A stretch of DNA of 64,000 bases from Scenedesmus sp. ARA3 (lineage: Eukaryota > Chlorophyta > Chlorophyceae > Sphaeropleales > Scenedesmaceae), in NCBI GenBank assembly GCA_004335835.1, contig RWJK01001664.1, forward strand, positions 17,308-81,307, read 5' to 3'. Position 1 is the stretch's first letter; every line of letters begins with the position of its first letter. The notes beneath the pieces are model-generated. The model worked only from the letters and a program-made list of their open reading frames with translations, was not told where the DNA came from and made no database searches. A program made the translations under genes and the position numbers. Positions 1 through 64,000 of this stretch are shown here, piece by piece.

Positions 1-58
1 AAGATATGTTACTAACAGGTTTTTAATGTTCAATTTTATATTACTGTTATTTCTGCAG

Positions 59-844
59 GCTTGCTGGAGGAGGCATTCATCCACAACAGCCAGGAGGGGC
101 TCACTGAGGCGTGGCTGGCTGAGGAGTTTGGCTGGGACAAGCCCGCGCCCCCACCACCCGGAAGGGGCCAGCAGCGCGAGACAGTGGCGTGGTTCATGGA
201 CCGGCAGGTGCGGCGAACACAGAATAATCGGCTGCTTCTGTATACTTTGTACCATATATACTTAGTGGAGGCCTCGCAGCTTGTGTGGGTGTGCATTTGG
301 CGGTTACACAGTGGCCTGGTCCATGGACCGGCAGGTGCGGCTCCCTGTTGCTGGGCAAAAAAGATTTTGAGGTTGCTTTCCGTACCTGCAGGAGGCGTCA
401 TAGCTTGTGTGGGTGGGTGGGTGTGCATCTGTGTTTTACACATGTGTGCGCACAGCTACCGACAGTATGAACTTCTTATTGTCTGACAATGATGTTCTTG
501 CGCTGCACTGCTCTGGCACCGTATTGCAACCGCAGAGTGAGCTGCAGCGCAAGCTGGCAGCGCGGCAAGCCAAGCTGGTGGGCGATGTGCGCAAGACAAT
601 CCGCGGCGTGGCCCGCAAGCTTGGAAGCTCCCCGAGCCCAAGCAGCAGCAGGCCAGGCACTCCCAAGATCAAAGGCGCTGCTGCTGCTGCCAACGCCGCA
701 AACGGCAACGGCAGGGCGTCACCCGCTGACTCTGCTGCTGCTGCTGAGGGGAATGGGAATGGGCGGGTGAGGCCTGCTGCTGCTGCTGCTGGCGGTGCTG
801 TTGATAGGGTCAAGGAGCTGATGAATGTGCTGCGCTCCAAGTGA
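59..844 (+). CDS. 3' end of an unrecognised gene (two exons seen)
   Basis: I do not recognise this protein. The window opens inside an intron; an acceptor AG at 57–58 starts an exon 59–207 that ends GACCGGCAG followed by a GT donor at 208. The last exon runs 536–844, starting after CAACCGCAG, in the same phase, and stops with TGA. The first exon reads LTEAWLAEEFGWDKP and ends WFMDRQ. The last exon is basic and helical (ELQRKLAARQAKLVGDVRK), then low-complexity Ala/Gly/Asn/Pro, and ends KELMNVLRSK. The lysine/arginine-rich stretch may be an amphipathic helix. Exon phase across the 328-base intron is consistent. A second copy of the exon end and its donor sits in the intron near 308–333. The upstream part of the gene lies outside the window. 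Confidence 0.6.
308..335 (+). repeat. Donor-side copy of exon 59–207
   Basis: The text around ATGGACCGGCAG|GTGCGG (194–212) recurs at about 311–338 within the following intron, with CAGTGGCCTGGTCC in place of CAGTGGCGTGGTTC. It contains the last codons of the exon plus the GT donor. It lies downstream of the intact exon, the polarity seen throughout the window. Confidence 0.75.
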
Positions 845-3800
845 ATCTGATTGTGAAGTTTTTCAACTTTAAATAATAGTTTGGAAGTAAGGAGTAGTAT
901 TGGTGTGAAGTTCTGCGTGTGCGAGGGGCATGGGGCGTGAAGTTTGGTGTGAAGCAGGGAAGTTCACGGTGCGAGAAGTGTGAGGTGTGTCGCGTGGCGA
1001 GTTACGTGATGCAGGCAAGGTGTGAGAAGTGTGAGGGGAGGGCGCGGCGGGGTTACACCTGCGCGGGGTTACACCTGCGCTTACGGTGGGAGGGATGTAT
1101 GCTACTCTAGCTGTCTTTTGCCTGTTGCACCATCAGCTGCTGGTGTTGCGAGGGCTATGGGAAGCTCCTGGTTTCTACCACAGCCTGCAGCACACCTGCC
1201 ATTCTCTATCGCTGCTCTAGGCGTCCTTTTAAGTGCCGTAGCTGCAGTGAATGTCGTTTGCTGTTGACTAGAATGTTTGAAGCGTCAATATGGTGCAGCG
1301 CGCAGCAAGAGGGTGGTAGTCGCTGCGTCCAGAGGTGCGGCGTCGCCACAGCTGCTGCTGCTGCTAAGTTGCCCGTGCGTGGGGCACGCCGCGCGCGCCC
1401 GCGTTCGCGCAGTTTTGTGCTCGGTGTTTCGTTGTGTGGCATTGTGTGTGGTGGTGGTGGTGGTGGTGGTGTGGTGTCTGCGTCAGGGCATGGCTGTGGA
1501 GCGTGTGCTGCGCGCAGGCAGCTGCAACGGATTCAGGTGTGGGTTTTGGGCATGGGTTTGGGGAATCGGCTGTGGCCGCAGTAGCCGAGGCAACAGCAGC
1601 GCACCGCGTGTTGTTATGCTGTGTCAGCTGTGCTGGCTGAAGCATGCGCTGTGCTTGCTCAAGCATCAGCTGGTGTTGCTGAAATGCCAGCTGCTTTTGC
1701 GGCCAGGTCACTGGTCACAAGGACAGTGTACATGCGTCAGTGCTTGGGTCTAGTACTATCATGCTGCGTGCAGTTCAAACCTTCCAGCTCGTTTGCTGTA
1801 AAAAAACCACAGCAGAAGAGCAACAGAGAGCGAGCGGCGAGTTGTCCGTGGTGTGCCTAGTTGCAGGAGTGTGTCAAGGCACATATACGCTGTGTGGCAT
1901 AGTCAGAGACACACATGCTGTCTGTGCCAATCGTTGAACTGTTTGGAACAGCTTTGACTGAGAGGCAGTAAGAGCTGGCATGCATAGCTGTTGTGCTTGG
2001 GTCTGCGCTGCGTTAGGTCATGTTGCAGTTCTTTTGCGGCCAGAAGGTAATGGCGTGACAACCTGCACAGCACAGCAGGCGTGCGCGCTGGTTTACTGGC
2101 AGTGCAGTGGGTGTTGGTGTTGTTGGGTGGCGCTGCTGGTGTCTGGCCCTTGTAAGCGCTGCTGTTGCACCTATTTCAATGCTGCGTGAGTGCTGCCTGT
2201 ATCTGCTGTGTTTGCTGCAGCGCTGCGCTGCTTTCCGTGCAGGGAGCGACAGGCGGTGCTGCTGATAGGACATCAGCGCACCAGCCAATTTTGGCTTGCA
2301 GTGGCGTTGGAGTGTGTGCGATGTTGACTGTTGTCAGCACCCAGCAATTATAGCCTGCTTGCAGCAGTGGCATGCTAGTGATGAAAGCAGAGTAGTGAGG
2401 TGTTTGGAGCAGAGTTGCAGGAGGCACTGAGGACACGGTCTGAGCAAGTAGTACACATTTCATATGAGTGGAAGGGGTGCGGCGTGGCCTGTGTTGCGGC
2501 AAGCGTTCCGATGTCCTTTGTGCGTCTTCAGGTTTCTTTCTTTGCCCTGATCAGGGTTTATCGTGATACCAGGCAGCGTTCAGTCATCCTGCGGGTGTAT
2601 ATTGGCGCTTTGCGCTCCTTGGTTGCGGCTCATCATCATGTTACCCATCAAGCCATAGCATCAACGCCATCGGCCCCGCGCTCCTTGGTTGCGGCTGTTT
2701 GGTTGCCCTGTTGGTTTTGGAATGGTGTTCATTTTGGCTGACATCCGTATGACTGCGCATCCTGCGGAGCAAAAACAGTCCCGTGTATGTGTGGTTTGCC
2801 AGCTTGATCCATAAGTATGGTGTGACTGTACGCAAGCACCATGTTTTGCGCGGTACTCTGTAACTTACAGTACTGAGTACATGTACGTCTTGTCTTGTCC
2901 TGTGCATACTCAGCATGCCGCAAGCTGGCATATCTGGCTAGCCATTTAGCGATGCTGCGATACTCAGCTCTTGTACAGGCGACGCAGACCTACGCGGCAG
3001 CAGTGGCAGGATTCACACATTACCCGCCCCCTTGAATGCTTGAGTTCAACACAAAGTGACCAACAAAACGTTGCCAATATAAGCCCTGCACAAGCACACA
3101 ACGGATGCAAGGGACTTCCACTGACTTCTGTGCTGCCGATATAAAGCCCGCATGCTACCCGCTTCCGCTGCGCTGTTGGTGTGCGTCCAAGGTTTTTGAT
3201 ATCAGTGCCTCTGCTCGGACTGCAAACAGGCTGCTGATGCCCAAAACACACCGCTAGCTTGCTTGCTGTCTAACCACAAGTAGATACATGCACTGCTTGG
3301 CTTGCTGAATGCGGCTGCTGCTGTGCATGGCGGCAAAAGCCGAAACCACTGTGCACAAAACAAAGAAAGAAAGAGAATACCTGGACACGGCACGACGTGC
3401 CCGCGCCTGTGCCTGCACAAACCACCCGCGCCCAACACAGCACGCATGTGCCTGCCTGCCTGGCGACGCTGACGCAGCAACGCTATACACCAAACTTGAA
3501 CCGCACACCAAGCTGAAGCGTCTTGCCCCTCGCACGACAGAAGAGAGAGAGGGAGCATGCAACAAGGACAGCCCGGCACATGAAAGAACCACGCAAAACC
3601 TGGCCGCCTGCAGCCGGACTGTGCTACGGCGTTGCAAGCAACTGCACCTCTGCACCACCCCACTCTGCCTCAGCCGCAAAGTGAACTTCAGCAGAGAAAC
3701 GATGCTTCCAAGATAGCTGAAACCAGCTTGACCCGCACAAAAAGGAACACAGCCAATGCCACGGCGACGCCCTGAAGCAATGCTGCTGCAGCTGCCATCA

Positions 3801-4296
3801 AAACCAGTGCCACCTGCAGAGGCGCCGATCAGAGGCAAAAAGCGCAGCCTCCAGCTGTCAGCCAAAAAAAAGCCTTGTTCTTTGCTGCGAGCCAGCTGCA
3901 CAGCTAGCTCGTCCGCAGTACGCACACCACCACATCCCCACGGCGACACAACACAACACAGCACGCGCAGCTGCAGCAGAAGCACCAGCGGACTTCCGCC
4001 GCTGCACTCCGCACACTGTGCTGCCTTGCTCTGGCCATCCCTCAGCTGTGCAACCAGAGCCCAACTGGACGACCAACCAGCCACAAATTGGGATCGGAGG
4101 TTGCGCGACCCCAACTGCTGCACACTTGACATTGTGATCCATCTGACAGCCTAGCCTATCCATCTTGGAAGCCTACGCCACACGAATGCCAAGATGTTGC
4201 ACTGCCAAAACCGTCAGCGCCAGCCGTCCGCCGCCACCACCACCACCACCACCACCACCGCCGCTGCCTTCATCAACAGCCAACACATCACAATAC

Positions 4297-4337
<41 letters not shown>

Positions 4338-4371: not shown

Positions 4372-7300
4372 TCATGCCCGGCCATCAGACTCGCCCCTGC
4401 CCCCTGACCTACCACCACCCCTGGGGCCACCCCTGCCTCCCCTGCCACCCTCTCCAAGCCTAGATGGTCCCCCTCCCATGCCTCCAGATGGGCCGCTGCT
4501 GCTGCCACCGCCGCCGCTGCCGCTCCTGCTGCCGTCCATGCCTCTACCCTCACCGCGGCCCTCGCCACGCGGCTTGCCCCTGCCGCCTTCTGCGTAGCCA
4601 CCTGTTTTCGCAGACAGCAGCACAACAAGAAGCAAAGCTTCGGACAAACAGTTTTGAGTTGACACATGTATCGGCCGAGCGGCCCTCGCCACACGGCTTG
4701 CCCCTGGCACCCTTCGCAGGCAACCGCCTGCACAAAAGATTACGCAAATGGATCACATCAGCATCAGCATCAGCATCCGAAGTGCCAGCCCCTGCCTCCC
4801 TCAGCGTAGCCACCTGCACAACAAATGGGCCAAATGAATGACATCAGCAATAGAATTAGCATCCGAAGTGCCAGCCCCTGCCTCCCTCAGTGTAGCCGCC
4901 TGCATAACAGACGAGGCAAAACGAAACATCATCAGCAATAGAATCAGCGTCCGCAGTGGCAGCCCCTGCCTTCCTCAGCGTAGCCGCCTGCTGCCGCATT
5001 CACAGCACAGCAGCACAATCGCACGTGTCAGCAAAGCTTCAGACATACAGTTAGGGTTTGATCAAGTAGCAGCCGTGCAGCATGCCAGGGCGGCAGCACC
5101 AACCACAGAGCAGCAAGCCAAGCTGACGCCACGGGCCCTTGCAACAACCCATCCAGCCGCCGCCAAAGGTCCGCCGCTTCTCACTGCCTCGCCTACTCCA
5201 TATGCAGAAAACTAGGAACTCCCTGCCGCCCCTGCCGCTGCCAGGCGTGATCATAAACGCGACACCACTCAAACAATAAGACATATCTCACCTGGCCTGC
5301 CGCCGAATGCGCCGGTGGATCCCGAGCGCCGGAACTCCCCACCCCCTGCCGCACGCCGCCCCTGCCGCCGCCAAACGAGGTCACTATATGCAAACACTAA
5401 AGGGAAAAAAGTACAACCCACATGGCCTGCCGCCGAACGTGCCCGTGGACCCCGAGCGCCGGGGTCTCTCGGCCGCCCCTGCCGCAACTAAACATTGTCA
5501 CAAATGCAACACAACCAAAACAGACAAACTATAGCCCACCTGGCCTGCCGCCGAATGCGCCGGTGGACCCCGAGCGCCGGAACACCCCGCCGCCCCTGCC
5601 GCCACCACACGTGATTCAGCACCAGAAACAAAACAGTTTCAATAGCACGCACCTGGCCTGCCGCCGAATGCCCCCGTGGACCCTGAGCGCCGGTACTCTC
5701 AACCCCTCCGTCACCAAATGTGAATCAGCACCAAAAACCAAACAGGTACTACACCCCTGGCCTGCCGCCAGATGCGCCGGTGGACCCCAAGCGCTGTAAC
5801 TCCCCGCCCCCCTGCCACACGCCGCCCCTGCCGCCGCCAAACAAGGTCACTAAATGCGGACACAACAACGAAATACAAGAAAGTAATACCCACCTGGCCT
5901 GCCGCCGAACGCGCCGGTGGACCCCGAGCGCCGGGACTCCCCGCCGCCCCTGCCGCCGCCACACGTGATTCAGCACCAGAAACAAAACAGTTTCAAAAGC
6001 ACGCACCTGGCCTGCCGCCGAATGCGCCGGTGGACCCAGAGCGCCGGAACTCTCCGCCGCCCCTGCCGCCGCCGCGGCCGTCGCCGCGGCCGCCCATGCC
6101 AGCCGCCAGGCGCTGCACCTTGGGGATCTTTGGCAGCACAGATGCGGGCGTACCACCTAGGATCAAGCTGCGCTTCTGGTAGTCCGCTAAAGCCTGCGTG
6201 GAAGCAGCAATGCAGCACGGCAGCAAGGTTGAATTTGGGGCAGCATGGAAGCACCTTGGGGATCTTGGGCAGCACAGATGCGGGCGTACCGCCCAAGATC
6301 AGGCTGCGCTTCTGGTAGTCCGCCAGGGCCTGCACGACAACAAGGAAGAAGTGCAGCAGCGAGGTTTAGAGCAGGTTTAGAGCAGGTATCATAATTGCTG
6401 AGGCAGCACGCCCCACAGGATCACACTGCACTTCCAGTAGTCAGCGAGCGCCTGCAGTCAAGCACAAAAGAGTAACACGGCCGCCCATGCCAGCCGCCAG
6501 GCGCTGCACCTTGCGGATACACTGCCGCCCATGCCAGCAGGTGTTGCTGCTGGCACCTTGGGCAGCATCGCGGCAGGCACGCCACCAAGAATGAGGCTGT
6601 GCAAGGCGCCATGCACGCCGTGAGCAGCAGCCATGCACGCCGTGAGCAGCAGCCTCCAACCATAAGTTCAAGCGAGCCGTGTTGCATGTTATGTGTACTT
6701 GTTACTTGCCAAATATAACATGTCATATGCCCGGCCTCACCTTCTGAGCAGCAACCTCTGACTCAAAGTCAACATATGCCGTGTTGGTGTCATGTGTGCG
6801 GCTGGGGATCACCAGGATGTGTGCAATGGGCCCATACACCCCAAACACTGACTGCAGCTCGTCACGTGTTGTGCTGTTGGGAATGCCACGCAGGTAAATG
6901 CCCGCAGCTTCACTGCCTGCTGACTCCCCAGAATCCTGCTGCCGCTGCTGCTGGGGCTGCTGCTGCTGCTGCTCGCGCGCGCCAGCGGCAGCGGCAGCAG
7001 CAGCAGCGGCGGCGACTGCAGCTGTGACTGATGCCTTCTCGCTAGCAGCAGCTGCTGCTGCAGAAGAAGGCTCCGGCCAGCCAGCAGCAGCAGGCTCATC
7101 AGCAGCAGGTGCTGCTGCTGCTGCTGTTTCTGCTGCAGCCGGGGCTGCTCCTGCTGCTGCTGCTGGCGCAGGACTGCTGCTGGTGGTGCTGCTAGCTGCA
7201 GCCGGCGCAGCGGCAGCAGCGCCTGCTGCTGCTGGTGCTGTGCGTGCTGTGCTGCTGCTTGCTGCTCCTAGGCGGCCTAACTTGACACGCTCGGCATATG

Positions 7301-9757: not shown

Positions 9758-12700
9758 TCACTCCTCGTTGTCCCCGCCCTCCTGCTCCTCGCTGCCGGGC
9801 CGGTACACATCCCGCCTCCGCGCGCTGTACTTGTCCCGAAGCTGCCTGCAGGGCAGCATCATCACCATCACGCTGACATGACAATCTCTGGAAGCAACGG
9901 CACCGTTGGCCATGCAACCCAGTGAAATGGCGCGATCAAAGACCAACAATTCACTGTGTTGCAGGCATTGCAGATTTTGAAGGCAAAAACAAATCAGGCA
10001 GCAAGTGTCTTGACTGGTGCTTTGAAAATCATGAGGTACGTTGATGATCATGAGGCAGCAACCGCCATAGCAGCTCACCTGCAGGGCAGCATGTCGCCTC
10101 GTGCATCCTGGCCCAGGAACAGAACGTAGCTGTAAGGGTGCTGCAGCGGGTCGGGGCCGTACACCTGCGGGGAAAGAACAACAGTGAAGATAGAGTTATG
10201 CAGTTTGCATGAAGCGTAAGGCCAAAACAGGCATCGAAATGGGCGTCAAACTTACTCATCCTGAGTCTAGTACATTTGTAATAAGCAGAAGTTCTACAGT
10301 TGTAACATACATCATGACAGCTTGTGAAAACTACTACTCACCCTTCACACAGCACTCTCATCATCATCAACACCAGTAGGATGTTGGATTGACAGACTAG
10401 AATGCTCTTGTTTTCTGTTGTATTTCCTGTTGTTTGTAGCTTCTTGTTGCTCAGCAGCCGCTGACGGCAACATTTGTTATGTTTAATGTGCAGACCTAAC
10501 CCCTCCCTCCCGTTAGCTGCATTGTTGCTCACCAGCTGCTGTCTGCACAGGAGTGTGTGGGTCGGCATGTCGCGTTCACCTTTCCTGCAAGATGAAGCTA
10601 GCAAGCATAAAGAGGCCGCAGTACAGTTTGAACAATGCAAAGTGCCACACAAGCACCTACCTGGCCCCAGCTGGCCCCTTCATCCTCCAGCTCTGGTGCA
10701 GCCAGCAGCTCCTGCGCCACGTAGGCCACCGGCGGCTGCGCTGAGTCGTAGCTCCAGTCTGACACCTCCACCAGCAGGTGGTAGAAGGGCTGGCTGCATT
10801 GTTCATAAGTGTGCAGGCGCAAAAGTTGTGAAGCAGATGCAAGCATGAACTGAGGGAGCACAGTAGGAGGCAGGAGCATGTGCAGGTGTCGTAGCGCCAG
10901 TCTGACACCTCCACCAGCAAGTGGTGGAAGGGCTGGCTACAGTTTCATAGTTGGGGTGCCAAGTGCAACAGTGTTGGACAGCAAGAACCACAACACAGAG
11001 CAGATGCTTTAGCAAGGAGATTGTGCCAGTGTATTGCAGACCCTGGCAAGCGCCTGCTGGACAGCTGAATTGAGTGTGCAACTGTAGCATCAATTCTGCT
11101 GAGCTGAACACTGACAACCAAGCAGAATGCAGCCAAACACCGCCTTTGAATGCCCACCTGAGGCCTTTCTTGAGCTCCCCTGCGTGTGCTGCCGCCTGCC
11201 ATGCCTCGTCCTCGCAGCAGCCCACATCCCAGCCCACCACCACCCCCCGGTAGCCGTGCTGCCTGCAAGCCAGCAGCAGCAGCAGCAGCAGCAGCAAGGC
11301 TTGTTGCATGTGAGGATGACAAGATACAGATCAGACGATGCATAACACATACTAGCAGTCAAATTCACCACCACTGAGCCAATCAGCGCACGTGTGCATC
11401 GCGCGCTGCCTCAGGCACAGCACCACCACCTGTGCAGCTGGCACTACTACACTCCCCCATAACAAAACATCGTATTCAAAACATCGCCAGCCATCGCACC
11501 TGTGCACCACGCGCTGTCCCAGGCGCAGCGCCACCACCTGAGGTGCAAGCACTACTGCACTCACGCATAAGTTATGCGGCATAACACATGTTGCTCTCGC
11601 AAACTTGCCCACACAACCGCTACTCAGGTCACCTGTGCACCACGCGCAGCCCAAGGCGCAGCGCCACCACCTGCAGAGCAGGCAGCTGCTCCGCAGCCAA
11701 AGCTGCTGCCTGCTTGGCCTGGCGGTCCAGCGCAGCAAGCATGTCGCGCACCTTGGCTGCATCAGCGTACCTGCAGGGACAAGACCGAGGCCAGACCGCG
11801 TTAAAAGGCTGCAGGGATGGACCCGGCTATGCAGGATTACTGTGCGGCACGCTTGGGCGTGTTGTGATGATCGTTGGCACTGAGGCGCAAGATGTGCTTG
11901 CTGTAGCAACATTGCAACCTGCCTTGCCGATTTATGCATCTGCCGACGCTGCGCTTATCAATTGCCATGTGGCAGGCTGTGCATGGCAGTTGAGTGGCTC
12001 ACATGCACACATAACCAGAACATCGTTGATGAATTGAATTGGCATGCACCCACCACTCCTCCTACACCGCGCGCTGCATCTCGCTGCGCAGCCTTAAGCC
12101 CTCGCTCATGGTGTCGCGCAGGTCACGCAGGTCCAGGCTGGCCTGTGCTGCGCCTAGTTGCACTTCACATGCAGCTAAACCACCAAACCACATACCGCAC
12201 GCTGCATCTCGCTGGCGCAAGTTGAACAAGCACAGAAAACAACAGGCTTTTCGCTCAGCTCAGCCACCAGGCCAGGAACTTGCCGCTCCTCTTGCACCGC
12301 GCGCTCCATCTCGCTGCGCAGCCGCAGCCCCTCGCTCATGGTGTCCCTGAGGTCCAGGCTGGCCTGTGCTGCGCCTGCTTGCACTCCACACGCAGCCAAG
12401 CCACCAAACCACACACCGCGCGCTGCACCTCGCTGGCGCAATTTCGACAAGCACACCAAACGATAGGCTTCTCGCTCGAGTACGCCGGCAGAAAAGGAAC
12501 TTACCGCTCCTCCTGCACCGCACGCTGCAACTTGCTACGAAGCCGCAGCCCCTCGCTCAAGGTGTCCCTCAAGTCCAGGCTGGCCTGTGCTGCGCCTGCT
12601 TGCACTCCACATGCAGCTAAACCTCCAAACAACACACCGCGCGCTGCATCTTGCTGCCGCAAGTTGGAAAGCACAGCGAACGACAGGGCTTCTTGCTTAT

Positions 12701-14338
12701 GTACGCCAACACAAAAGGAACTTACCGCTCCTCCTGCACTGCACGCTGCATCTCGCTGCGCAGCCTCAAGCCCTCGCTCATGGTGTCCCTCAAGTCCAGG
12801 CTGGCCTGTGCTGCGCCTAGTTGCACTCAAGATGCAGCTAGACCCCCAAACCACATACCACGCGCTGCATCTCGCTGGCGCAAGTTGAACAAGCACAGAA
12901 AACAACAGGCTTCTCGCGCAGCTAAGCGACCAGAAAACGGACTTACCGCTCCTCCTGCACAGCGCGCTGCATCTCGCTGCGCAGCCGCAGGCCCTCGCTC
13001 ATGGTGTCCCTCAAATCCAGGCTGGCCTGCGCTGCGCCTGCCCCAAGAGCATCTTCTTCGCTCATGCTGGACTGCACGGACACGGCCTTGCGCTCCTGCA
13101 TGTCGCGCAGCGCAAGGTCGACCTGCGCTTGCAGGAAAGGGCGGGAAAGCGGCAGCAGTGATCAGCGCTGAATACAAAGGATGCTGCGTGCGTCCTGCAG
13201 CCGCACCACACCTGCCGCAGATCAGCATGTAAACAAAAGGAAGATGCACCTGATGGTATAATACAGTTGAACCTGCTGCTCCCTCAGCTCCGGCACTGCT
13301 GCCCGGCCCACACCACACCTGATGCTCTGCCAGTCAAACAAACTCGCCGCACAAGTTTGACCGCTGCTCACCGTTTCCCGCTTTGCCCTGATCTGCTGCG
13401 CTGCCTCATATGCTTCATAGTTGAGCGCCCGCTGCAGTTGAGCGTCCAGCTCCAGTTGGAAGATGAAGTACACGATTTCCTCGTTGACAAGCGCGGAGCG
13501 CTCACACTCGCGCTCGCCTGCACGATCAAATGTACACATCCATGCATGTGATTGTTGTGGTGTCACGATCTCCAGATGTCCAAACTTCAAGTTGGATGGA
13601 GGGCAGCTGCATGGCACAGTGATGGGTGCAAGGCAGGCAGCCGCACCGCTTGCGGTTGCACTGCTGTGCATGATGTGGGTTGGTGTTGATGCAGATGAAT
13701 TGACAGGTAGCAGACAGGCAGGGCACTGCAGGCGCGTGTGCATGTGAAAAAACCATGCAACTGGAACACAGTTCAACTGCGCATGCCACGACCACCAGCA
13801 TTCTGGCTGCGATACTTCCGGCCACGCCGTGTCATACAATGCATGGCTTATGCCCATGCTACTACTGCTGTTCTGCTGCTGCTGCTGCTGCTGCTGCCCC
13901 CTGTTTTGAATAATACAGAAGAAGCCCCACCTGCGGATGTCCCCTGCCTACGCAGAGCCTTCCAGTTAGGACTTTTCCATGGCCATGCTTCGGTGCTGCT
14001 GCTGCTGCCGCCACTGCTGCTGCTACTGCTGTTGACTGCAACACGTCGATGGCGTTGGTTACGCCACCGGTTCTTTGCTGCTACTGTCAGCGGCTGACTG
14101 CCTGCGGCTGTTGTAGCGTTTCTGGGCAGGGCTGCTGCTGCTGCTGTTGTTGAACGCAGGCATCCTGCAGATGCTATGCTGCAGTTTCTATGTAAAGGTA
14201 GCTGCTGTGGGTTCTGCTGACGACCGTGAATGCCCACGTGCCCTGCAGGATGGTGCAGAGCAGCAGCACAGCAGCAGGCACACTGTAGCGGATGCGAAAT
14301 GATGTATGAGGACAGGATCGCCGTCCGTGTAAGCTCAT
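9758..14338 (-). CDS. ClpF: ClpF-like chloroplast Clp protease adaptor (UVR + YccV domains)
   Basis: Nine exons chain to 406 residues: 14338–14238, 14178–13931, 13517–13372, 13122–12947, 11770–11633, 11262–11158, 10793–10661, 10164–10079, 9845–9758. The core reads ERECERSALVNEEIVYFIF then QLELDAQLQRALNYEAYEAA, a UVR-like helical pair, followed by AVQEERYADAAKVRDML (second UVR). A YccV/HspQ-like domain follows: HGYRGVVVGWDVGC, QPFYHLLVEVSDW, VAYVAQELLAAPE, HPYSYVLFLGQDARGDM, QLRDKY. The order matches the plant UVR/YccV protein ClpF, which with ClpS1 delivers substrates to the stromal Clp protease. The first two exons are Ser/Arg/Ala-rich, as for a transit peptide, but their junction is inferred and the start at 14338 is uncertain. 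Introns hold copies of several junctions. Confidence 0.85.
10894..10940 (-). repeat. Acceptor-side copy of ClpF exon 10661–10793
   Basis: The reverse complement of about 10894–10938 repeats QPFYHLLVEVSDW-coding sequence, including GCCAGTCTGACACCTCCACC on the + strand. It sits upstream of the intact exon in transcription order. Confidence 0.8.
11385..11545 (-). repeat. Two donor-side copies of ClpF exon 11633–11770
   Basis: Segments at about 11385–11435 and 11491–11545 repeat the end of the exon (LRLG-RVVHR) and part of the donor. Both are downstream of the intact exon on the − strand and are diverged by several substitutions. Confidence 0.75.
12045..12840 (-). repeat. Four donor-side copies of ClpF UVR exon, unit about 220 bases
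   Basis: The 3' part of exon 12947–13122 (GAAQASLDLRDTMSEGLRLR and the end of the exon) recurs at about 12725–12830, 12505–12610, 12283–12390 and 12045–12165. Three copies keep a GTAAGT-like donor context (CTTACCGCTCC on the + strand at 12503, 12723 and 12943); the 12283 copy has lost the GT. The intervening intron is duplicated as well. Divergence increases with distance from the intact exon. Confidence 0.85.
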
Positions 14339-20961: not shown

Positions 20962-21042
20962 CTGCACAACAAACAACAACACTCCAAAACAATGCAGCGC
21001 GAAACCCGCTCCAAGGCGACCCGGGCCAGCTGCCGACTCCCC

Positions 21043-48922: not shown

Positions 48923-48957
<35 letters not shown>

Positions 48958-49460: not shown

Positions 49461-49518
<58 letters not shown>

Positions 49519-49758
49519 TGCTGTTGATTTGCAGCACACGCTGCAAACGCTGCAACTGCCCCTTCTGCTCGGCATCCACACGCACCGGTCCTGCTGTGCA
49601 GCAGCCCTCATCCCAGTCACCAACACCTGCTGCTACTGCTACTGCTGCTACTGCTGCTGCCTCACCATCCACAGGTACAGGTCCTGCCGCTTGCGCGCCT
49701 CAAAGAACAGCACGCTGCTGCAGCCCTTCTCCTCAGCCACCTCGTTGATGACGCCCCT

Positions 49759-49813
<55 letters not shown>

Positions 49814-49863
49814 NNNNNNNNNNNNNNNNNNNNNNNNNNNNNNNNNNNNNNNNNNNNNNNNNN

Positions 49864-49923
<60 letters not shown>

Positions 49924-50760
49924 GCTTAATCAGCTGGCAGACACAAGCTCCAGCAGTCAGAGCTGTGGTGGCACCTGACTTGCAGCTGCCGTGTCATATC
50001 TGCCGGCAGCTGCAGCCGATTCCGGCATCGTTTTGCCGCCGCTCAACGCTGACGAGCCTGCTGGCTGCCTATTACAAGTGACAGAGAGTGCAATCAGCTG
50101 CCCACCTGTCGCTCTTTGTGTCCAGCTTCACATCCTTCTTGCTGTGCGGCAGCAAGCTGATGAAGTCTGACATGAGGTGCCGGGACCTGCGGGCAGGCAA
50201 ACAGGCAAACAGGAGGTTGTTGTTGTTACAGTGGTGGCAACTCACTCAGGGCGCCAGGTTTGTTTATCAGGGTCTCAGGCGCAGCGAAATCAAGGGCTGG
50301 TGACGGTGCTGTGGTGTGATGCTGATGTCGAACGTTTATGGGCTCCGTGAACAAGTAGATGCACAAGTAGATGTACAGGTTTGTGTGTAATAGAGTTGCA
50401 ATGCAGACACGGAACAGGTACCACTGGAGTGCAGTGCCCGGCCACCCCTGCTATGAAGCTGCACTTTCGCTGCCGGCACATTGCCTGCTGCTGTGCTGTC
50501 CTGTTGTGTAGCATAAAGGAATCTGACTCTGTATGACCAGCACATAAGCTTCAGAGTTTGCATGCCTGTGTCCCCGACACTGCTGCATACCTGTAAGTAA
50601 TGCCACGTGTTCCCAGCACCAACACTTTCTCTTTGTTCTTGAAGCTGCGCTTCTGCTTGGCTGCAGCTACGTCTGGTGCTGCATCTACCTTTTGCTGTTT
50701 TCCAGGCTGCTGCACTGCTGCTCCAGCATCACCTGCTGCTGCTGCTTTGCGCTTGGCCAT
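46902..50760 (-). CDS. BRX1: Ribosome biogenesis protein BRX1 (Brix domain)
   Basis: Eight exons, 50760–50591, 50186–50106, 49756–49666, 49264–49167, 48920–48848, 48531–48430, 47906–47703 and 46988–46902, give 301 residues, close to yeast Brx1 (291). It starts MAKRKAAAAG. The Brix domain begins KVLVLGTRGITYR and continues RHLMSDFISLLPHSKKDVKL, INEVAEEKGCSSVLFFEARK, DLYLWM, KFLVLNVHTMDELKLTGN, LKGSRPVLSFD, FGTPRGHHRVKPFFDHVLSF, IRIFEGSFGGPVLYDNPEFV and VMRRLQKQQAAGKYK. BRX1 is a nucleolar factor of 60S pre-ribosome assembly. The last exon is short and basic (AKRRDHEAANVMPRSEIDD). The intron between exons 2 and 3 contains an unsequenced gap in a CAG run. Divergent from DGD1. Confidence 0.95.
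47200..47565 (-). repeat. Two donor-side copies of BRX1 exon 7
   Basis: The exon 3' half (FEGSFGGPVLYDNPEFVAPN to GKYKAK plus GT) recurs at about 47450–47560, nearly exact, and 47203–47310, diverged (FEGSSCGPVLSDNPEFV). Both also repeat intron sequence. They lie downstream of exon 47703–47906, with divergence growing with distance. Confidence 0.92.
47940..48140 (-). repeat. Two acceptor-side copies of BRX1 exon 7
   Basis: The exon start VVMPLDKKKADPSNVTLVEV recurs at about 48066–48138 (nearly exact, through VEVGPRA) and 47943–48001 (VVIPLDKAKADQFNVTL). Both lie upstream of the intact exon in transcription order. This exon thus has two copies on each side. Confidence 0.92.
49441..49522 (+). 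repeat. CTG run in BRX1 intron
   Basis: (CTG)n with TTG interruptions, about 80 bases, in the intron between exons 3 and 4. On the gene's sense strand it reads CAG, so it does not form a 3' splice site here. Confidence 0.75.
49757..49920 (-). repeat. Long CAG/CTG run with sequence gap
   Basis: (CAG)n on the + strand from 49758 is interrupted by 50 N at 49814–49863 and resumes to 49920. The N run marks an assembly gap inside the triplet repeat, so the true length is unknown. On the BRX1 sense strand this is (CTG)n ending CTGCAG at the acceptor of exon 49756–49666. Confidence 0.95.
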
Positions 50761-51163: not shown

Positions 51164-54100
51164 ATGGCAGAGACAGCTCCCCCACCCCAATCAGGGCCTT
51201 TTTGGCCAACACAGCGGCCTGTGCTTGCCCTCACTGACTCTGCATTTCCACCTTTAAAAAGCCTAAGTCTTGCGCAGACGTTGAAAAGCGCTTACAGCCA
51301 GCACCCTTCGGTGCAAAAGTTGCTAGGGCAGTATGAAGCTTGGGAGGATTCCTTCAGGCGAGAGGCAGAAACACGCTTGGGTGGCTTTAAACCCATCCAG
51401 CAGCTGCTGGATACGCACCTGGCCGAGGAGTTCCAGCAGAGCTTGCGCAAGGTGAAGACGCAGCAGAGTCTGTTCGAGAATGCGGGCATGAAGCGCTGTG
51501 CTTCAGAAGGCAGCCTCACCAACGCAGCGTCAGAACCAGGCAGCAGCCGTGCCAGGGGTCAACGCGTGCATCTGCGGCAAGACTGGGATGTGCTGTCTAG
51601 CTTCAACCCAGAGGCCAACGTGGGCAGGCACAGCAGCTACGCAGACAGCCCCAGCGAGATGCAGGAAGCCGAGTCAGCAGGCCTGGGTCGCTTCCCACGC
51701 GGCAGCACAGCCCCTGCCCTGCGGGACAAGGGCCCTGTGGCAGCAACAGCAGCGGCGGCGGCAGCAGCAGCAGGTTCTACTATGCTAGGAACAGTCATCG
51801 ACGAGGACAGCGATAGCGCAAGCAGCAGCAGCAGCTGGGCAGCAGCTGATGAGGGCTCACGGCAGCTAGAGGCAGTAGCAGCGCGGCTGCTGGCGCAGAG
51901 CAGAGCGGCCATCCAGAACGCGCAGCAGACCTTGCAGGAAACTGCCACCAACTGCCAGGCCAACCTGCAGAGCCTTGGCGCTCTCCTGCAGCAGGTCAGC
52001 ATGGCCACAGCAAATGAGTATGGCATGCCACGCAGCGGCAGCACCGGCAGCATGCAGGTCGTGCCGTGGCAGCGCAACAGCAGCGGCCAGCCCGACTCGC
52101 CCTCAGCAGCAAACTGGGATTTGGTGCCGAGGTTTTTCGGGGAGGAGCTGCCGCACCCCACAAACGGCACCAACATGGGCAGCAGCAGCAGCCTTGCGGT
52201 GTTTGCGCGGGAGGCGAATGGGCAGGAGCTGGCAGCGGCTGATGGCGCAGACGCAGATGCACAGGTGGGTGCTGCTGCGGTGCGGATGCATGGTGTCCTG
52301 CGTTGGTGTGCAACATCTGGTTCTGTAGCAGAGGTTGGGGTGTGCGGGCGGCCTTGCAACCAGCATGGCAGTAGTAGTAGTAGTAGCACACCAGCGTGGC
52401 GTAATGAGCTGTAGGCAGGCAGGCAGGGGCATGCTGGGCCACCGGACTCGCCAGTCATGCCGAGCACCAGCCTGCTGTTTGCAGCTGCACAGCGGTTAAC
52501 CACCAGGCTTCGGCAACACTCAGCAGTTGTGCATCAGCAGCAGCTTGGGGTCTCAGTGGACACAGCAGCAGCAGCTGGCCAAAGCCACTTGGTGGAACCG
52601 AATGCTGCGTATGAGCGACCACCTGGCCCTGCTTCGCAAGCTGGCCTCACTTCCTGCAAGGTGGGCTCTCCCAGTGTGCCATTCTCGTTCACCACCAGTC
52701 ATGTAATTTGTGTATCCTGCAGGCCAATGGCTACCAGCAGATGAGCGACTATTTGGACCTGCTGCACAGCCGCAAGCGCGCACAGCAGAAGAGCCTGCGG
52801 GACCCGGGGCGCAGCGTGGCCATTGTTACAACTGCCAGCCTGCCCTGGATGACCGGGACAGCAGTCAATCCGCTGCTGCGCGCAGCATACCTGGCCAACA
52901 ACGAGGACCGACAGGTCACACTGCTGCTGCCGTGGTGAGTGTAGTGTTTTTTTTGTTGGTTTATGCAGCAGCAGCTTGTTGTGCCCCGCTAGCGGCGGCG
53001 GCTGCGCGCATTCACTGCTCATGTGTGCTGACGCAGCAGCAGTGGTGCCAGTGGTGCCTCAACGTTGCACCTGCATCATTTCCCCGCACATCCGTCTGAT
53101 GTGTCCCTGTGCTTGAACACTTGTGTTTCATGTATGTTCCCTCGCACGCTGACCAAGCCGGACCAGGAGCATGGTCCGCAACAGTGTGACCAACAACCAA
53201 ACAGTGACTTGCATCGACCTTCGTTGACCTGCATTGTCTCCATGTTTCAATGTCTATTTCCCCGCAGGCTGTCCAAGCCGGACCAGGAGCGCGTGTTCCC
53301 CAACAGCGTCACCTTTGACTCGCCCGCGGATCAGGAGGCGTTTGTGCGCGAGTGGGCGCAGAAGCGCACCGGGCTGGCCTGCAGCTTCAAGGTCAGGTTC
53401 TACCCGGGCCGCTACGCGCCGGAGAAAGGTGGGTGGCAGCCGCCCGTGTGCACATGGCTTGATGATGAGTCAACGCAGCGGAGGCGTTATTTACCTGCAG
53501 CCTCCACATGGCGCAGTACAGCCATAATCGATTATAATGCACGGGCCAAGTGCTGCTACTTCTGTTTCTGTGCGTGGCGCGTGTTGCACCGAGCATCCTG
53601 CCTGTGGCCGACATCAAGTAGTACATCTGAAAGTCACACCTCGGCTTCCTTACATCAAGTAGTGTAGAGTGTCCCTCTCATGTGTTGAGTGTGCCTTTCG
53701 CGTGTTGTTTGCTGCGCGCATACATCCGCCTATGTTTGGATGCAGGCAGCATCCTGCCGGTGGGCGACATCACGCAGTACATCCCTGACGCGGAGGCTGA
53801 CGTGGCGGTGCTGGAGGAGCCCGAGCACCTCAACTGGTGAGGCAGCATCAGGACGCGCATGGAGTGTTTGAGGCTTGACGTCAGCAGCTGCTGCCTCTGC
53901 TGCCCTGCGACATTGTTATATTCGATATACAATTGTGTGTATGCTGTTAATGCAGATGTTTTGCTTCTCGGCGCTACAGCTTGAACTGTTACAGCCTCAG
54001 TACTCTGCATCACCCTCTTGACGCTGCACCTGCTGAGCCGTTTGTTTGCCGTGCCGTCATCGCGTGCTGGCTGCAGGTACCACCACGGCCGCCGCTGGAC

Positions 54101-57100
54101 GGACAAGTTTGCGCACGTGGTGGGCGTGATGCACACCAACTACCTGGACTACGCGCGGCGCGAGGAGCGGGGTGCGATCAAGGAGGCGCTGCTGCGGTGA
54201 GCGCTAGTGTTGTTACTGATGTTGCGCATGCATGCGTGTGCAGATTTTGGCGCGAGGAGCGCTGCGCGATGAAGGAAGCACTGCTGCGACAAGATGCGTC
54301 GTGCGTTGCATGCATGCATTGTCTGTGTGGGGTGCTGTGACACTGCGGTGACTGCGGTGACACTGCGGCGACTGTGGCTGTGTGTGAATGCGTGGCATTG
54401 CTTGCGTGCCTTCTGTGAGTGGTGACTCACCTGCTGCTGCTGCTGCTGCTGCTGGCGCTGCTGCAGGCACATCAACGCCTGGGTGTGCCGCATCTACTGT
54501 CACAAGGTAATCAAGCTCAGCGACGCGGTGCAGCCGCTGCCGCGCCAGGAGACCATGTTTGTGCACGGCGTGTCGCCCAACTTCCTGCGCGTAGGCCAGG
54601 AGAAGGCGGCAGCAGCAGCGGAGGGGCAGCACACCTGGGGCAAGGTGCGACACTGCCGTGACAAGCACCCAGCAGTCATTCCAGCTGATGTGGCTGCTTC
54701 ATGCAAGCTAATGTAGGCTGTTGCATGGTGGCGTGGCTGTGCTGCTAGGCGCATGTATCTTCACTCTGCTGCGTTCTGCCATCATCGCTGCCACACCGCA
54801 GGGCGCGTACTTCCTGGGCAAGGCGCTGTGGGCCAAGGGCTACACCGAGCTGCTCTTTACTGTACATATGTTTTAGCTGGAATATGTTTGTCACTTCTTT
54901 TGCTGCTGCTGCTGTACAGGGCGCGTACTTCCTGGGCAAGGTGCTGTGGGCCAAGGGCTACACCGAGCTGCTGCAGCGCCTGCAGGAGCACAGCAGCGCC
55001 ACGGGGCAGCACGTGCCTGTGGACGTGTATGGGGCAGGGCCTGATCTGCAGGAGGTGCAGCAGGAGGCGGCCAGCCGGCGGTTGAATCTGCAGTTCAACG
55101 GGCCGCGCGACCACGCGGACGCCTCGCTGCAGGTGCGAGCGGGGGTATAGGGGTAGCCCTGGATAGTTGCAAACAGCCAGCTGGAGTTTGCACTACAGAG
55201 GCTGGATGGCGAGGACGGCCTGCAGGGTTGTCAGCTGATCGCACAAGCTGACATGGCACAAAGCAGCGACGCTGCAACCGCAGCGGCGCCGTGGCCACCG
55301 TTATTCTGGTATGATTATTGCAGACACTCCTCTGACCAACGCCGGTGCTGACCAGCCCCGGGTTTTACACACCCTGTTTTGGACACGCCCTGCAGGACTA
55401 CAAGGTGTTCATCAACCCCAGTCAGAGTGACGTGGTAGCCACCACAGCCGCGGAGGCGCTGGCTATGGGCAAGTTTGCTCACAACCACGCAGACTGTGCT
55501 GCACTGAACACCTAACCCCCTGAACCCTGCTGCTCTTGCGCTCCTAAACCGCAGGACTACAAGGTGTTCATAAACCCAAGCCTGAGCGACGTTGTGGCCA
55601 CCACCACAGCAGAGGCGCTGGCCATGGGCAAGTTTGTGGTGTGCGCGGAGCACCCCAGCAACAAGTTCTTCGCGCAGTTCCCCAACTGCCTGGTGTACAG
55701 GTGCGAAGGGATTATGTGGTAATGCCGGTGTGTGTGGCGCTGCGTGCGCGTGTGCTGGAAGCGGCTGGGATAGGGTGTGCAGTTTACCGCAGCCTTTCAA
55801 GCTGTGTGCTGTGCAGTTGGCTCCAGGCTGCTGTCAGGTGCCGAGACCAACTTGTGCCGACACCACTTCAGCGTGGTAGTTGGTGCAATGCAGCACCAAG
55901 CGTGCGCTGGCTAGCCTGCTCACCATGTGCTGCTGCTGCCGCTGCTGCTGCTGCTGCTGCGGCAGGACGCCCGAGGAGTTCAGCCGCTGCCTGCAGCACG
56001 CCATGCAGCACGAGCCGCAGCCGCTCAGCCCGGAGCAGCTGCGCAAGCTCACCTGGGAGGACGCCACCGAGCGCTTCCTGCAGGTGCGTGTCGTGCTTAT
56101 GTACTTGCTTGTTTAGTTGCTTATGTACATGATGAAGAAGCACACAGCGTTGTTTGGTTTGGTGTAGAAGGATGTGGTTGCACTTTGGGGTGTGGACGTG
56201 TGCAAGCTCACCTGGGAGGACGCCACGGAGCGCTTCCCGCAGGTGAACAGGCTGCTCTTTGTTTGGTTGCTCAGCTAGTGGTGCATGTCTGTGTCGTTTA
56301 CGCACGCCAGTGTGAGGCAGCAGAGGTTCAAGGCAGGCAGAAATGTACTTGCAGAAGTGTACTTGCAACGTTGGCAGTCTTGTGTTGCGTGTTGCCTTGT
56401 CATGCTTGTTGCTGGGCACATGCCTCAGCATATTCTGCATGGGAGCGATGCGTAGCAAGAGCTTCTGCACCAGAGCAGCTTGCATTGGTGCAACGTTGGC
56501 AGTCTTGTGTTGCGTGTTGCCTTGTCATGCTTGTTGCTGGGCACATGCCTCAGCATATTCTGCATGGGAGCGATGCGTAGCAAGAGCTTCTGCGCCAGAG
56601 CAGCTTGCATTGGTTCAAAACTGAAGCGAACGCTGATACAAAAACGTGGCGTCTTGACACTCTTCCACACTTCCTCCACAACCTTTGTGCGCAGGTCGCT
56701 GAGCTGAAGCAGACGCCGCCGCTGCATGAGCAGCTGCTGGACTCCTTCCTGGCAGCAGCGCACCACAGCCTGACCAGCATGGAGGGCCTGCGCGTGATCG
56801 CAGGTGCGTGGGTTTACAGCTGATGCCATGTGCTTGCCATGCATATGTTTGCTGGGTGGGCTGATGCACAGGCTTGACCAGCATGGAGGGCCTGCTCATG
56901 ATTGTGTGGCGTATGTGTATGGTTGCGTGCCTGCTGCTTGTGTGTTGGTGCGCTGTGTAGGCTGTGTTGTGGGACGAATCGTGTTCCGTGCTTGTGCTCT
57001 GTGTTGTTTGGCCTGCTACTGGCACTTGGCACCCTGTTTGCGTCGCTGCGTTCACAGTGCCGGTGCAACTACTAATGTAATGTGTTGCTTCGCGTATGTG

Positions 57101-57257
57101 TTTGCGCAGGTGCTGGCGCCAACACGCGCGACTCGCCCGCCAGTGTGACAGATTACATGCCCAGCGAGTCAGACATTGGTGGTCTGTTTGATGACCACAG
57201 CAGGGCCAAGCAGACTTACAGCAGGACCAAGGCAGCCAAAGCAGCAGCGCCGCAAGC

Positions 57258-57295
<38 letters not shown>

Positions 57296-57414
57296 TGGTG
57301 CTGGCTCGCGGCGGGTCGGCGGCTTCTGTTGCGGCGGCTGTGGCTGCAGCAGCAGAGGAGGAGGCAGCAGCAGCAGCAGCAACCGCAGGCGGCCGCGCAG
57401 CGCGGCAGCAGTAG
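51164..57414 (+). CDS. DGD1: Digalactosyldiacylglycerol synthase, DGD1 type
   Basis: Eleven exons, 51164–52264, 52723–52934, 53268–53428, 53746–53836, 54077–54196, 54467–54644, 54920–55132, 55555–55700, 55966–56083, 56695–56803 and 57110–57414, give 917 residues. The first 367 residues form a long, weakly conserved N-terminal part, as in plant DGD1. The GT-B catalytic domain starts near residue 398: [122 protein letters not shown] and [17 protein letters not shown]. It transfers galactose from UDP-galactose to MGDG at the outer plastid envelope, making the thylakoid lipid DGDG. The C-terminus is a Gln/Ala low-complexity tail. The segment 52574–52661 could hold an extra exon. Confidence 0.95.
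53128..53200 (+). repeat. Acceptor-side copy of DGD1 exon 3
   Basis: TTCCCTCGCACGCTGACCAA and GCCGGACCAGGAGC..CAACAGTGTGACC repeat the region around 53255–53313. The original AG acceptor has become CAC. Confidence 0.85.
53586..53630 (+). repeat. Acceptor-side copy of DGD1 exon 4
   Basis: GAGCATCCTGCCTGTGGCCG and ACATCAAGTAGTACATC repeat GCAGCATCCTGCCGGTGGGCG..ACATCACGCAGTACATC at 53745–53783. The copy contains an in-frame TAG. Confidence 0.8.
54243..54295 (+). repeat. Donor-side copy of DGD1 exon 5
   Basis: GGCGCGAGGAGCGCTGCGCG and ATGAAGGAAGCACTGCTGCG repeat the exon end at 54156–54196 but have lost the GT donor (now ACAAG). Confidence 0.8.
54802..54856 (+). repeat. Acceptor-side copy of DGD1 exon 7
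   Basis: GCAG|GGCGCGTACTTCCTGG through ACCGAGCTGCT repeats exon start 54920–54974 with one base changed. Both copies have a good acceptor. Confidence 0.92.
55390..55475 (+). repeat. Acceptor-side copy of DGD1 exon 8
   Basis: CTGCAG|GACTACAAGGTGTTCATC to GCTATGGGCAAGTTTG repeats about 75 bases of exon 55555–55700, with several silent changes and SQ for SL. Confidence 0.92.
56190..56245 (+). repeat. Donor-side copy of DGD1 exon 9
   Basis: CAAGCTCACCTGGGAGGACG and GAGCGCTTCCCGCAG|GTG repeat the exon end 56044–56086 ([13 protein letters not shown]). Confidence 0.9.
56370..56612 (+). repeat. Tandem 120-base intronic direct repeat
   Basis: A unit beginning CGTTGGCAGTCTTGTGTTGC and ending CAGAGCAGCTTGCATTGGT is present twice head to tail (about 56370–56491 and 56492–56613) with one or two differences. 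It is in the intron before DGD1 exon 10 and does not touch an exon, so it is a plain recent tandem duplication. Confidence 0.92.
56862..56905 (+). repeat. Donor-side copy of DGD1 exon 10
   Basis: CTTGACCAGCATGGAGGGCC and TGCTCATGATTG repeat 56770–56801 ([10 protein letters not shown]). The donor is altered. Confidence 0.8.
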
Positions 57415-62800: not shown

Positions 62801-63284
62801 GATGCGGCGAGCGAGTGCCCTCCTGCAACCACCTGCTGCTGCCTGAGGTGGGTGTAGAAGGGGTTTTGGGTTCAGGGTTGGTGTGTGTTGAGTGTGTGTT
62901 GAGCATGGGCAGCGTAGCGTGTGCACCCAAGCCTGATGAGCCGGTTGCGTGTGATGCAGCGAGCGAGTGCCCTCCGGCAACCACCTGCTGCTGCCTGAGG
63001 TGAGCCCGGTATTCAAGGAAGAGAGTGAGAATCACATGCCTGAATTAACAGTCACTGCTGCCCCATGCAGTACCGCACAGACACCTTCAACATGTTCCAG
63101 CATCAAACCGTCCTGATGTCCTGGCTTCTGCTGCTGCTGCCATCACAGGGACATTGCCGGCTTCTGCTTCTCCTGGGGCTGCTGCCCCATGGAGGGCGCC
63201 ACCTGCTGCGAGGACAAGGAGCACTGCTGCCCCAGCGACCTGCCCATCTGCGACACGGATGAGGGACGCTGCCTGCCCAAGCCG
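59874..63284 (+). CDS. Papain-family cysteine protease with granulin domain (RD21-like)
   Basis: Ten exons in the window, 59874–59975, 60057–60125, 60212–60292, 60380–60577, 60832–60972, 61494–61563, 61832–62061, 62311–62387, 62578–62847 and 63149–63284, encode 458 residues; the stop is not found and the gene may run on. Residues 1–19 ([19 protein letters not shown]) are a signal peptide. The I29 inhibitor prodomain follows ([34 protein letters not shown]). The mature enzyme starts near VEIDWRKQ, with catalytic Cys154 in CGSCWAFS, His in LDHGVLAVGYG and Asn in [16 protein letters not shown] Pro-rich linker ([16 protein letters not shown]) and a granulin module ([29 protein letters not shown]) follow. 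Such enzymes act in the vacuole or are secreted. The usual GCNGG is GCGGG here. Confidence 0.93.
61083..61195 (+). repeat. Donor-side copy of protease exon 5 with intron start
   Basis: CTGCGGCGGCCTG, TTGAGCAAGGGTTCATCAAA and ATGCATGGTTGGAATG repeat the exon end and 110 bases of intron from 60957. The copy is diverged by several indels and its GT is TT. Confidence 0.8.
62920..63004 (+). repeat. Donor-side copy of protease exon 9
   Basis: GCACCCAAGCCTGATGAGCC through TGCTGCCTGAG|GTGAG repeats about 75 bases of exon end 62770–62850 with only synonymous-type changes. Both copies keep an intact donor. Confidence 0.93.
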
Positions 63285-63334
63285 GTGAGTGACAGGATTT
63301 CATGGTTTGGTGGTTTGGTAGCGTTCATTTCAGT

Positions 63335-63635
63335 GGAAATGCCCATCTGCGACACAGACGAGGGACGCTTTCTGCCCAAGCCGGTGAGTGCTGATCAGGA
63401 CAGACAATGGCTGTTTGTTTGGGAGCGTGTGTTAGGCAAATCAGCGGAGCAGCAAGCAGGGTACTGGCCTAATCTGTGACACAGACGAGGGACGCTGCCT
63501 GCCCAAGCCGGTGAGCAAATCCCGTTTTGAGGCTGTCTGTTGTGTTGATCATCACAGCAGCAAGTCAGCAGCAGGCAGGGGACCTTGTCGTGTGGCAACA
63601 CAGATGACAGGCGCTGCCTGCCCAAGCCGGTGAGG
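63335..63635 (+). repeat. Three donor-side copies of protease exon 10
   Basis: The exon end [13 protein letters not shown] plus GTGAG recurs at about 63341–63388, 63475–63516 and 63596–63636. The copies get shorter, and the last reads NTDDRRCLPKP. All keep the CCCAAGCCG|GTGAG donor. Confidence 0.93.
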
Positions 63636-63785
63636 CGCTGTGGCTTCGCTGCTGTTGGCTGTGGCTTCGCTGCTGTTGGCTGTGGCTTCGCTGCTGTTGG
63701 CTGTGGCTTCGCTGCTGTTAGCTGTGGCTTCGCTGCTGTTAGCTGTGGCTTCGCTGCTGTTTGCTGTGGCTTGGCTGCTGTTGGC
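63636..63785 (+). repeat. 21-base tandem repeat
   Basis: Seven units of GCTGTGGCTTCGCTGCTGTT plus one base (last unit TTGGCTG) run from about 63645 to 63783. It starts directly after the last donor copy of the protease exon. Confidence 0.95.
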
Positions 63786-63822
63786 ACCAGCATACACTTC
63801 ATTCCTCTGCCTTTTGTACCTA

Positions 63823-63889
63823 CACGGTCAACTTGTACAAAACATTCTCAAGCCCGAGAACGTCTTGTACAAGTCGACCGTGAATGAAC
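63823..63889. repeat. Imperfect inverted repeat
   Basis: ACGGTCAACTTGTACAAAAC at 63823–63842 and GTCTTGTACAAGTCGACCGT at 63861–63880 are near-perfect reverse complements with an 18-base loop. It could form a hairpin in DNA or RNA. Confidence 0.8.
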
Positions 63890-64000
63890 ACAAGGCAGCA
63901 AAACATTTTGAATGTGCATGTTTGTGGTTTCGGGAACCGGCACGGCACCAGCAGCGTTGCTGAGTCTGTGCCCTGGGCCACATACAGCATGCCCATATGT

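Follow-up and report, generated by a model that had tools for sequence, protein, structure and literature searches.

Introners are dispersed families of similar introns that occur over many genes. In intron gain by tandem genomic duplication, reviewed with reference to Hellsten 2011 and to Gao and Lynch 2009, a stretch of exon containing AGGT is repeated and gives rise to an additional intron (PMC3443670). Tandem duplication of proto-splice sites in Drosophila was found in 5 of 31 selected cases and led to new intron positions (PMC2891723), and repair-mediated duplication is described as using arbitrary templates, usually about 1 kb away (PMC2671141). The present analysis concerns a stretch of 64,000 nucleotides from the green alga Scenedesmus sp. 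ARA3 (the window; contig RWJK01001664.1, G000:C1268:17308-81307, in an assembly of 87.3 Mb and 1567 contigs), in which the ends of exons recur, together with their splice sites, inside the adjoining introns. A first-pass annotation of the window had reported such copies in almost every gene and had attributed them to tandem duplications crossing exon-intron borders. None of the papers listed in the literature searches described a genome in which existing exon borders have been duplicated again and again.

Copies of exon borders in adjoining introns

The presence of exon-border copies in the adjoining introns was confirmed. Set against the totals of the first-pass annotation, about 30 junctions in twelve genes, the material covered in the window comprised eight curated genes, with 120 junctions and 60 introns, and one partial gene. 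A gene-oriented scan of the curated genes revealed a nearby copy at 24 of the 120 splice junctions, and each of the eight genes contained at least one. In all 24 rows the copy lay in the adjacent intron with the polarity that the first-pass annotation had given, i.e. donor copies downstream and acceptor copies upstream, showing that the polarity is not random. Three of these rows were weak, with 66-70% identity (PROT D60972 and two HEAT rows at 24.6-24.9 kb). The borders that had been singled out for multiple copies were all recovered as such, with two copies on each side of BRX1 exon 7 and three copies each of the ELIP donor 17204, the HEATR6-like donor 28494 and the protease donor near 63289.

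Each exon, extended by 12 flanking bases, was also compared with the introns of its own gene, the introns of the other seven genes serving as the control. This search yielded 37 own-gene matches. Of these, 31 were found on the expected side, in the intron next to the exon, and either crossed a junction or came no more than 5 bases short of it. The other six were two matches of HEAT exon 12 in a distant intron, one 31-base match of the interior of HEAT exon 11, and three short UVR matches that ended 11-16 bases short of the donor. The control gave 34 matches, which came from two query genes only (HEAT 32, UVR 2) and were not inspected singly. When exon-to-own-intron matches were sorted by orientation, 30 were direct and none was inverted. 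Likewise, the local pairs in 291 kb of window and genome sample (non-redundant, at most 600 bases apart and of at least 48 bits) were direct in 134 cases and inverted in none, which makes a chance origin unlikely. Direct orientation, adjacency and anchoring at junctions together point to tandem duplication as the likely origin and disfavour fragment capture.

At least one copy was present in 20 of the 60 curated introns. Their median length was 400 bases, compared with 239 bases for the other 40, a difference of about one duplication unit, though a longer intron also offers a copy more space. With this reservation, the finding agrees with the earlier proposal that introns can grow in this way. 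GT or AG was retained in 25 of 32 copies. The intron-length comparison was based on a supplied list of 29 copies, in which the third copy of the HEAT donor and those of the protease donor near 63289 did not figure. Self-comparison of the whole window gave 139 pairs, most of them less than 4 kb apart, and many derived from one coding repeat at 37-40 kb. A predicted gene at window positions 36500-40500 has many short exons encoding 24-base repeats, with introns between them, and may represent a coding minisatellite that introns interrupt.

The genome sample consisted of 23 stretches of the same assembly (227 kb), among them three on contig C745 and one on the contig that also holds the window; L014 and L017 include 4292 and 5523 N bases, respectively. 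Local pairs involving an exon were observed in 16 of the 23 stretches, with a maximum of 17 in 10 kb, and none in the other 7. Border duplication is patchy across the genome, and the statement that it affects almost every gene holds for the curated genes of the window but not for the sampled loci. The density of local duplications varied sharply between regions, with none in the 30 kb of C745:1-30000 (L010, L022 and L023) and many in C1268 and C585. In window and sample together, 129 pairs involved an exon, 17 lay within introns and 4 were intergenic. These classes are rough, as adjacent genes were fused by the gene finder and some copies were predicted as exons, and the ratio of 129 to 17 is inflated by such copies and by coding repeats, which were counted as exon-involving. 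Geometry alone gives crossing and intron-only placements at 1.08 to 1, a near balance from which this count departs, though exon halves may simply persist for longer.

Intron halves, coding constraint and other strains

If a duplicated unit crosses a border, its intron half should be repeated too. In the window, 10 blocks had 90% identity or more, and 8 of these ended no more than 8 bases from the junction, compared with 1 of 77 in a simulation of neutral decay, which modelled donor borders only. In the sampled loci this was seen for 23 of 31 such blocks, a figure biased upward because the nearest predicted junction was taken and some of these junctions lie on copies. The clearest sharp end was found in L008 (715-788 / 858-931), where 74 identical bases end at GTGAGT and the flanks are unrelated. 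Some window blocks, however, reach 13-25 bases or more into the intron. Homology of the spacers was tested on 33 hand-picked pairs. With shifts within the same intron as the null, the preferred version, 30 of the 33 could be scored; 10 had p<0.1 on the expected diagonal and 20 did not (median p 0.39; Kolmogorov-Smirnov p=0.016). With the introns of other genes as the null, 8 of 33 pairs had p<0.05 (median p 0.14), and the p-values of this version were uncorrelated with exon-end identity (33 pairs, rho 0.10, p=0.59). Spacers still align clearly in the BRX1 and ClpF arrays. The earlier attribution to border-crossing tandem duplication is therefore upheld as regards orientation, adjacency, anchoring and polarity, but not in its claim that such duplication leaves exactly this pattern, because the intron half was undetectable in most close pairs. 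Two recently duplicated ELIP paralogs (L035) proved uninformative for calibrating how introns diverge, the intron stretch being largely CTG repeat. In this locus (C1124:53000-57600), two tandem ELIP-like genes have a last exon with 95% identity, and local copies occur at two of their junctions.

Differences between copy and exon were counted in 31 of the 33 picked pairs and comprised 75 synonymous and 64 non-synonymous changes and 7 stops. The synonymous share was 0.54, compared with 0.39 expected for a neutral copy (p 0.0002), an excess that may partly reflect mutation bias. The copies were more unequal in this respect than expected by chance (41 pairs, 39 of them with differences; permutation p 0.00005); these 41 of 43 pairs include several from the same arrays and hence are not independent, and reading frames in the sampled loci were taken from the gene finder, so that some may be wrong. 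Seven copies, chosen after the list of 41 had been seen, together carry 41 synonymous and 2 non-synonymous changes; they belong to DGD1 55555, the NTF2-domain gene at 6193, the first copy of ClpF 12947, protease 62847 and 63289, BRX1 47906 and L008 1676. Non-synonymous changes exceeded synonymous ones in 18 of the 41, and 8 stops were counted overall. The copies thus probably do not form a single class. Splice-equivalent AG/GT sites, the AGGT signature, were present in 8 of 43 pairs only, and a role of the copies as general equivalent splice alternatives was rejected for want of suitable sites. Intron gain of the AGGT type is thus not the general explanation, though it may apply to ClpF exon 5 and to the NTF2-domain gene.

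Evidence from other strains came from two loci and from annotated models rather than transcripts. In the BRX1 model of Tetradesmus obliquus OEZ86 (P0206, OEZ86_008940), an extra exon begins with 15 residues shared with the spacer before copy 3 in the window and goes on to an end identical to that of the exon, and the end of copy 3 in the window has, on our reading, five residues changed from the exon. An independent assembly thus also has the copy, its end differing between the strains; this difference is suggestive of exchange between copy and exon. The OEZ86 model probably takes the intronic copy as a false exon, with 38 residues repeated. The proteins P0122 and P0208, whose record names resemble assembled transcripts of a relative, were without the copies. 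In the ClpF-like gene, exon 5 (window 11600-11700) encodes L at a position occupied by Q in 35 of the 36 homologs that a pattern matched. The copy in the intron (window 11470-11570) encodes Q and, being preceded by CAG and followed by GTGCG, resembles a complete mini-exon. The OEZ85 model of ClpF also has Q at this position.

Explanations for the copies

The explanation that we tentatively prefer, with a little less than even confidence, is tandem duplication across borders, after which the intron halves decay freely, recombination with the constrained exon maintains the exon halves, and a copy is used now and then. Short direct tandem duplications, with units mostly of about 70-260 bases, would recur in gene bodies. 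A unit spanning from exon into intron, or the reverse, would leave an extra exon end and splice site inside the intron, and with the original border presumably still spliced, the protein would be unchanged and the intron one unit longer. The intron halves would drift freely and soon become unalignable, and the exon half might be refreshed from the constrained exon by local recombination, either gene conversion or unequal exchange. Some copies are perhaps kept through present or past use in splicing. The residue in most close pairs would be the exon end with 3-8 bases of splice site. The origin by tandem duplication is well supported and decay of the intron halves fits the alignments; maintenance of the exon halves is our inference. 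The polarity follows from tandem geometry together with constraint on the protein and gives no additional indication of a special system. That the intronic exon ends form a local store of spares, which are kept in step with the exon, exchange with it or replace it, and whose duplication drives intron growth, seems somewhat unlikely; ClpF exon 5, with L in the exon and Q in the copy, would then be one such exchange or substitution.

Several results weigh against the preferred explanation. A conversion tract was never seen directly, and conversion-type refreshing alone does not yield a class of copies with synonymous changes only. The strain difference in BRX1 concerns only a few residues and could be explained by array turnover. 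The distribution of differences over codon positions (46, 20 and 73) is not far from neutral decay, and the retention of GT or AG is about what slow neutral loss leaves. In addition, when the BRX1, ClpF, ELIP-17204 and HEAT arrays are set aside, 16 pairs have an identity of 0.90 or more, and only 2 of them showed spacer homology at p<0.05, which is explained more simply by the main rival, splice-bounded duplication. Here the unit would be the exon end with a few bases of the splice site, the border setting one breakpoint and new filler lying between the copies. The sharp ends at junction +3 to +8, which occur even at 98-100% identity as in L008, also favour it. We nevertheless consider it unlikely, as tandem-type spacer homology at p<0.1 was found in a third of the scored pairs and some blocks extend well into the intron; moreover, no enzyme cutting DNA at splice sites is known to us. 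In a further rival, ordinary tandem duplications arise at random and decay neutrally, and the pattern comes from geometry and from selection on exons. This would force the polarity, gives roughly equal crossing and intron-only placements, and is compatible with the codon-position counts and with GT/AG retention, which suit largely neutral copies. It is improbable in view of the simulated rarity of sharp ends, the inflated excess of exon-involving over intron-only pairs and the uncoupling of exon-end identity from spacer homology.

If the copies were in use as parts of new or alternative introns, with either copy spliced to give the same protein, as happens in intron gain by tandem genomic duplication, purifying selection would keep both. 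The seven post-hoc copies, the inequality among pairs, the Q in the ClpF intron copy with its splice-like flanks, and the annotation of a BRX1 copy as an exon in OEZ86 are consistent with such use. This account is quite unlikely, given the scarcity of splice-equivalent sites, the many copies with mostly non-synonymous changes or stops, and the two apparently transcript-derived proteins of a relative that are free of copies. An assembly artefact, in which diverged haplotypes or repeats had been stitched together, is suggested by the resemblance of similar exon ends with unalignable introns to two diverged alleles, and by the presence of a 50-N gap in the window. Such an artefact, which would have told against the first-pass annotation, is highly improbable: the independent strain OEZ86 encodes the BRX1 copy plus the end of its spacer, arrays of four copies adjoin an exon, copies carry stops and many non-synonymous changes, and no second close DGD1 was present among the 40 of 152 candidates scored, of which the best relatives reached 74-83% over single exons. 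Derivation of the copies from a second DGD1 gene was rejected on the same grounds. Capture of nearby DNA fragments in the repair of intron breaks would explain copies that are short and local and whose flanks are unrelated, as vertebrates show in repair-mediated duplication, but has very little likelihood, since inverted copies would be expected and were absent from the local pairs, and copies in distant introns or of exon interiors, likewise expected, were confined to the three HEAT matches.

Gene models and comparison with known systems

A DGD1 query assembled from window exons matched T. obliquus OEZ86_008941 with 95% identity, the exons agreeing nearly residue for residue, and BRX1 matched OEZ85_000511 with 100% identity (rounded), a single differing residue being noticed. 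These protein matches identify the organism as Tetradesmus obliquus or a very close relative. Exon coordinates of DGD1 (11 exons) and BRX1 (8 exons) were obtained by spliced protein alignment. The six other gene models were predicted with a small home-made gene finder, seeded with the DGD1 and BRX1 exons, and then curated by eye; the finder placed 15-16 of the 19 known exons exactly. Unsupervised training without true exons was dropped, as genes were over-split. One of the six encodes a ClpF/UVR-domain protein, and Pfam assigned the others as a papain-type protease, a chlorophyll-binding (ELIP-like) protein, a DNAJC9-like protein, an NTF2-domain (G3BP-like) protein and a DUF4042 protein. The last is labelled HEATR6-like, since we take DUF4042 to be a marker of HEATR6. 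A gap of 50 N (window 49814-49863) lies within a CAG repeat of a BRX1 intron. A sequence of about 53 bases in a protease intron (window 61257-61320) is a dispersed repeat; it was the source of 38 of the 40 matches listed, on other contigs and with 83-94% identity. The features are compiled in Table 1.

Table 1. Genes, border copies and an intron-only duplication in the window (window positions)
Feature	Position	Strand	Remarks
DGD1 (digalactosyldiacylglycerol synthase) gene	52052..57411	+	11 exons, aligned to OEZ86_008941; copies at 7/20 junctions
DGD1, acceptor-border copy, exon starting 53268	53124..53191	+	AG lost
DGD1, copy of start of exon starting 53746	53592..53627	+	in-frame stop, AG lost
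DGD1, donor-border copy, exon ending 54196	54249..54288	+	GT lost
DGD1, acceptor-border copy, exon starting 54920	54799..54854	+	98% identical, begins at CAG; spacer homology undetectable
DGD1, acceptor-border copy, exon starting 55555	55392..55477	+	10 synonymous, 2 non-synonymous differences
DGD1, donor-border copy, exon ending 56083	56199..56245	+	
DGD1, donor-border copy, exon ending 56803	56867..56902	+	GT lost
DGD1, intron-only tandem duplication	56364..56618	+	period 125, 98%; contrast case with complete unit
BRX1 gene	46905..50760	-	8 exons
BRX1 exon 7 acceptor border (47906), copy 1	48066..48139	-	4 synonymous, 0 non-synonymous
BRX1 exon 7 acceptor border (47906), copy 2	47948..48006	-	80%
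BRX1 exon 7 donor border (47703), copy 2	47442..47566	-	spacer homologous
BRX1 exon 7 donor border, copy 3	47192..47314	-	matches extra exon of OEZ86 protein model
DNAJC9-like, donor 32232 copy	32337..32369	+	
DNAJC9-like, donor 33112 copy	33208..33256	+	
DNAJC9-like, acceptor 32953 copy	32797..32846	+	AG lost
ELIP-like, donor 15978 copy	16056..16116	+	
ELIP-like, donor 17204, three copies	17271..17530	+	spacers almost unalignable
Papain-like protease, donor 62847 copy	62923..63002	+	5 synonymous, 0 non-synonymous
Protease, donor near 63289 (approximate base), three copies	63349..63634	+	at 63349, 63472 and 63595
HEATR6-like (Pfam DUF4042), donor 28494, three copies	28242..28468	-	
ClpF/UVR-like, donor 12947, four copies	12056..12818	-	period about 221, spacers alignable
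ClpF/UVR-like, donor 11641, two copies	11378..11543	-	copy 11494-11543 has conserved Q, exon has L
ClpF/UVR-like, acceptor 10793 copy	10888..10949	-	
NTF2-domain (G3BP-like), acceptor 6193 copy	6251..6333	-	8 synonymous, 0 non-synonymous; donor-like sequence at distal end
Partial gene, donor 207 copy	308..341	+	junction from gene finder; spacer homologous

The window offers a dense natural record of existing introns lengthening without harm to the protein. For this alga, annotations exist for at least two further strains (OEZ85 and OEZ86). The copies mislead gene prediction, as our own gene finder and, seemingly, the public OEZ86 annotation took them for exons. If copies of exon ends do exchange sequence with exons, introns would be one source of variation in proteins.

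Introners, like the present case, change the intron content of a lineage on a large scale, but the copies described here are local to each gene, and no dispersed family was found at the copies among the matches listed when four gene regions were compared with their own genome. Repair-mediated duplication likewise yields short local duplicates that include splice sites, whereas the copies here are direct, adjacent and anchored at junctions (PMC2671141). As in the Drosophila cases, exonic sequence around splice sites is duplicated and one copy intronised, but intron positions are unchanged here and 24 of 120 junctions are affected (PMC2891723). Intron gain by tandem genomic duplication shares with the present case the tandem duplication within a gene and the protein left intact through splicing (PMC3443670). 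Here, in contrast, existing borders are copied; because existing introns lengthen and the AGGT signature is so rare among the pairs, the process does not amount to intron gain as usually understood.

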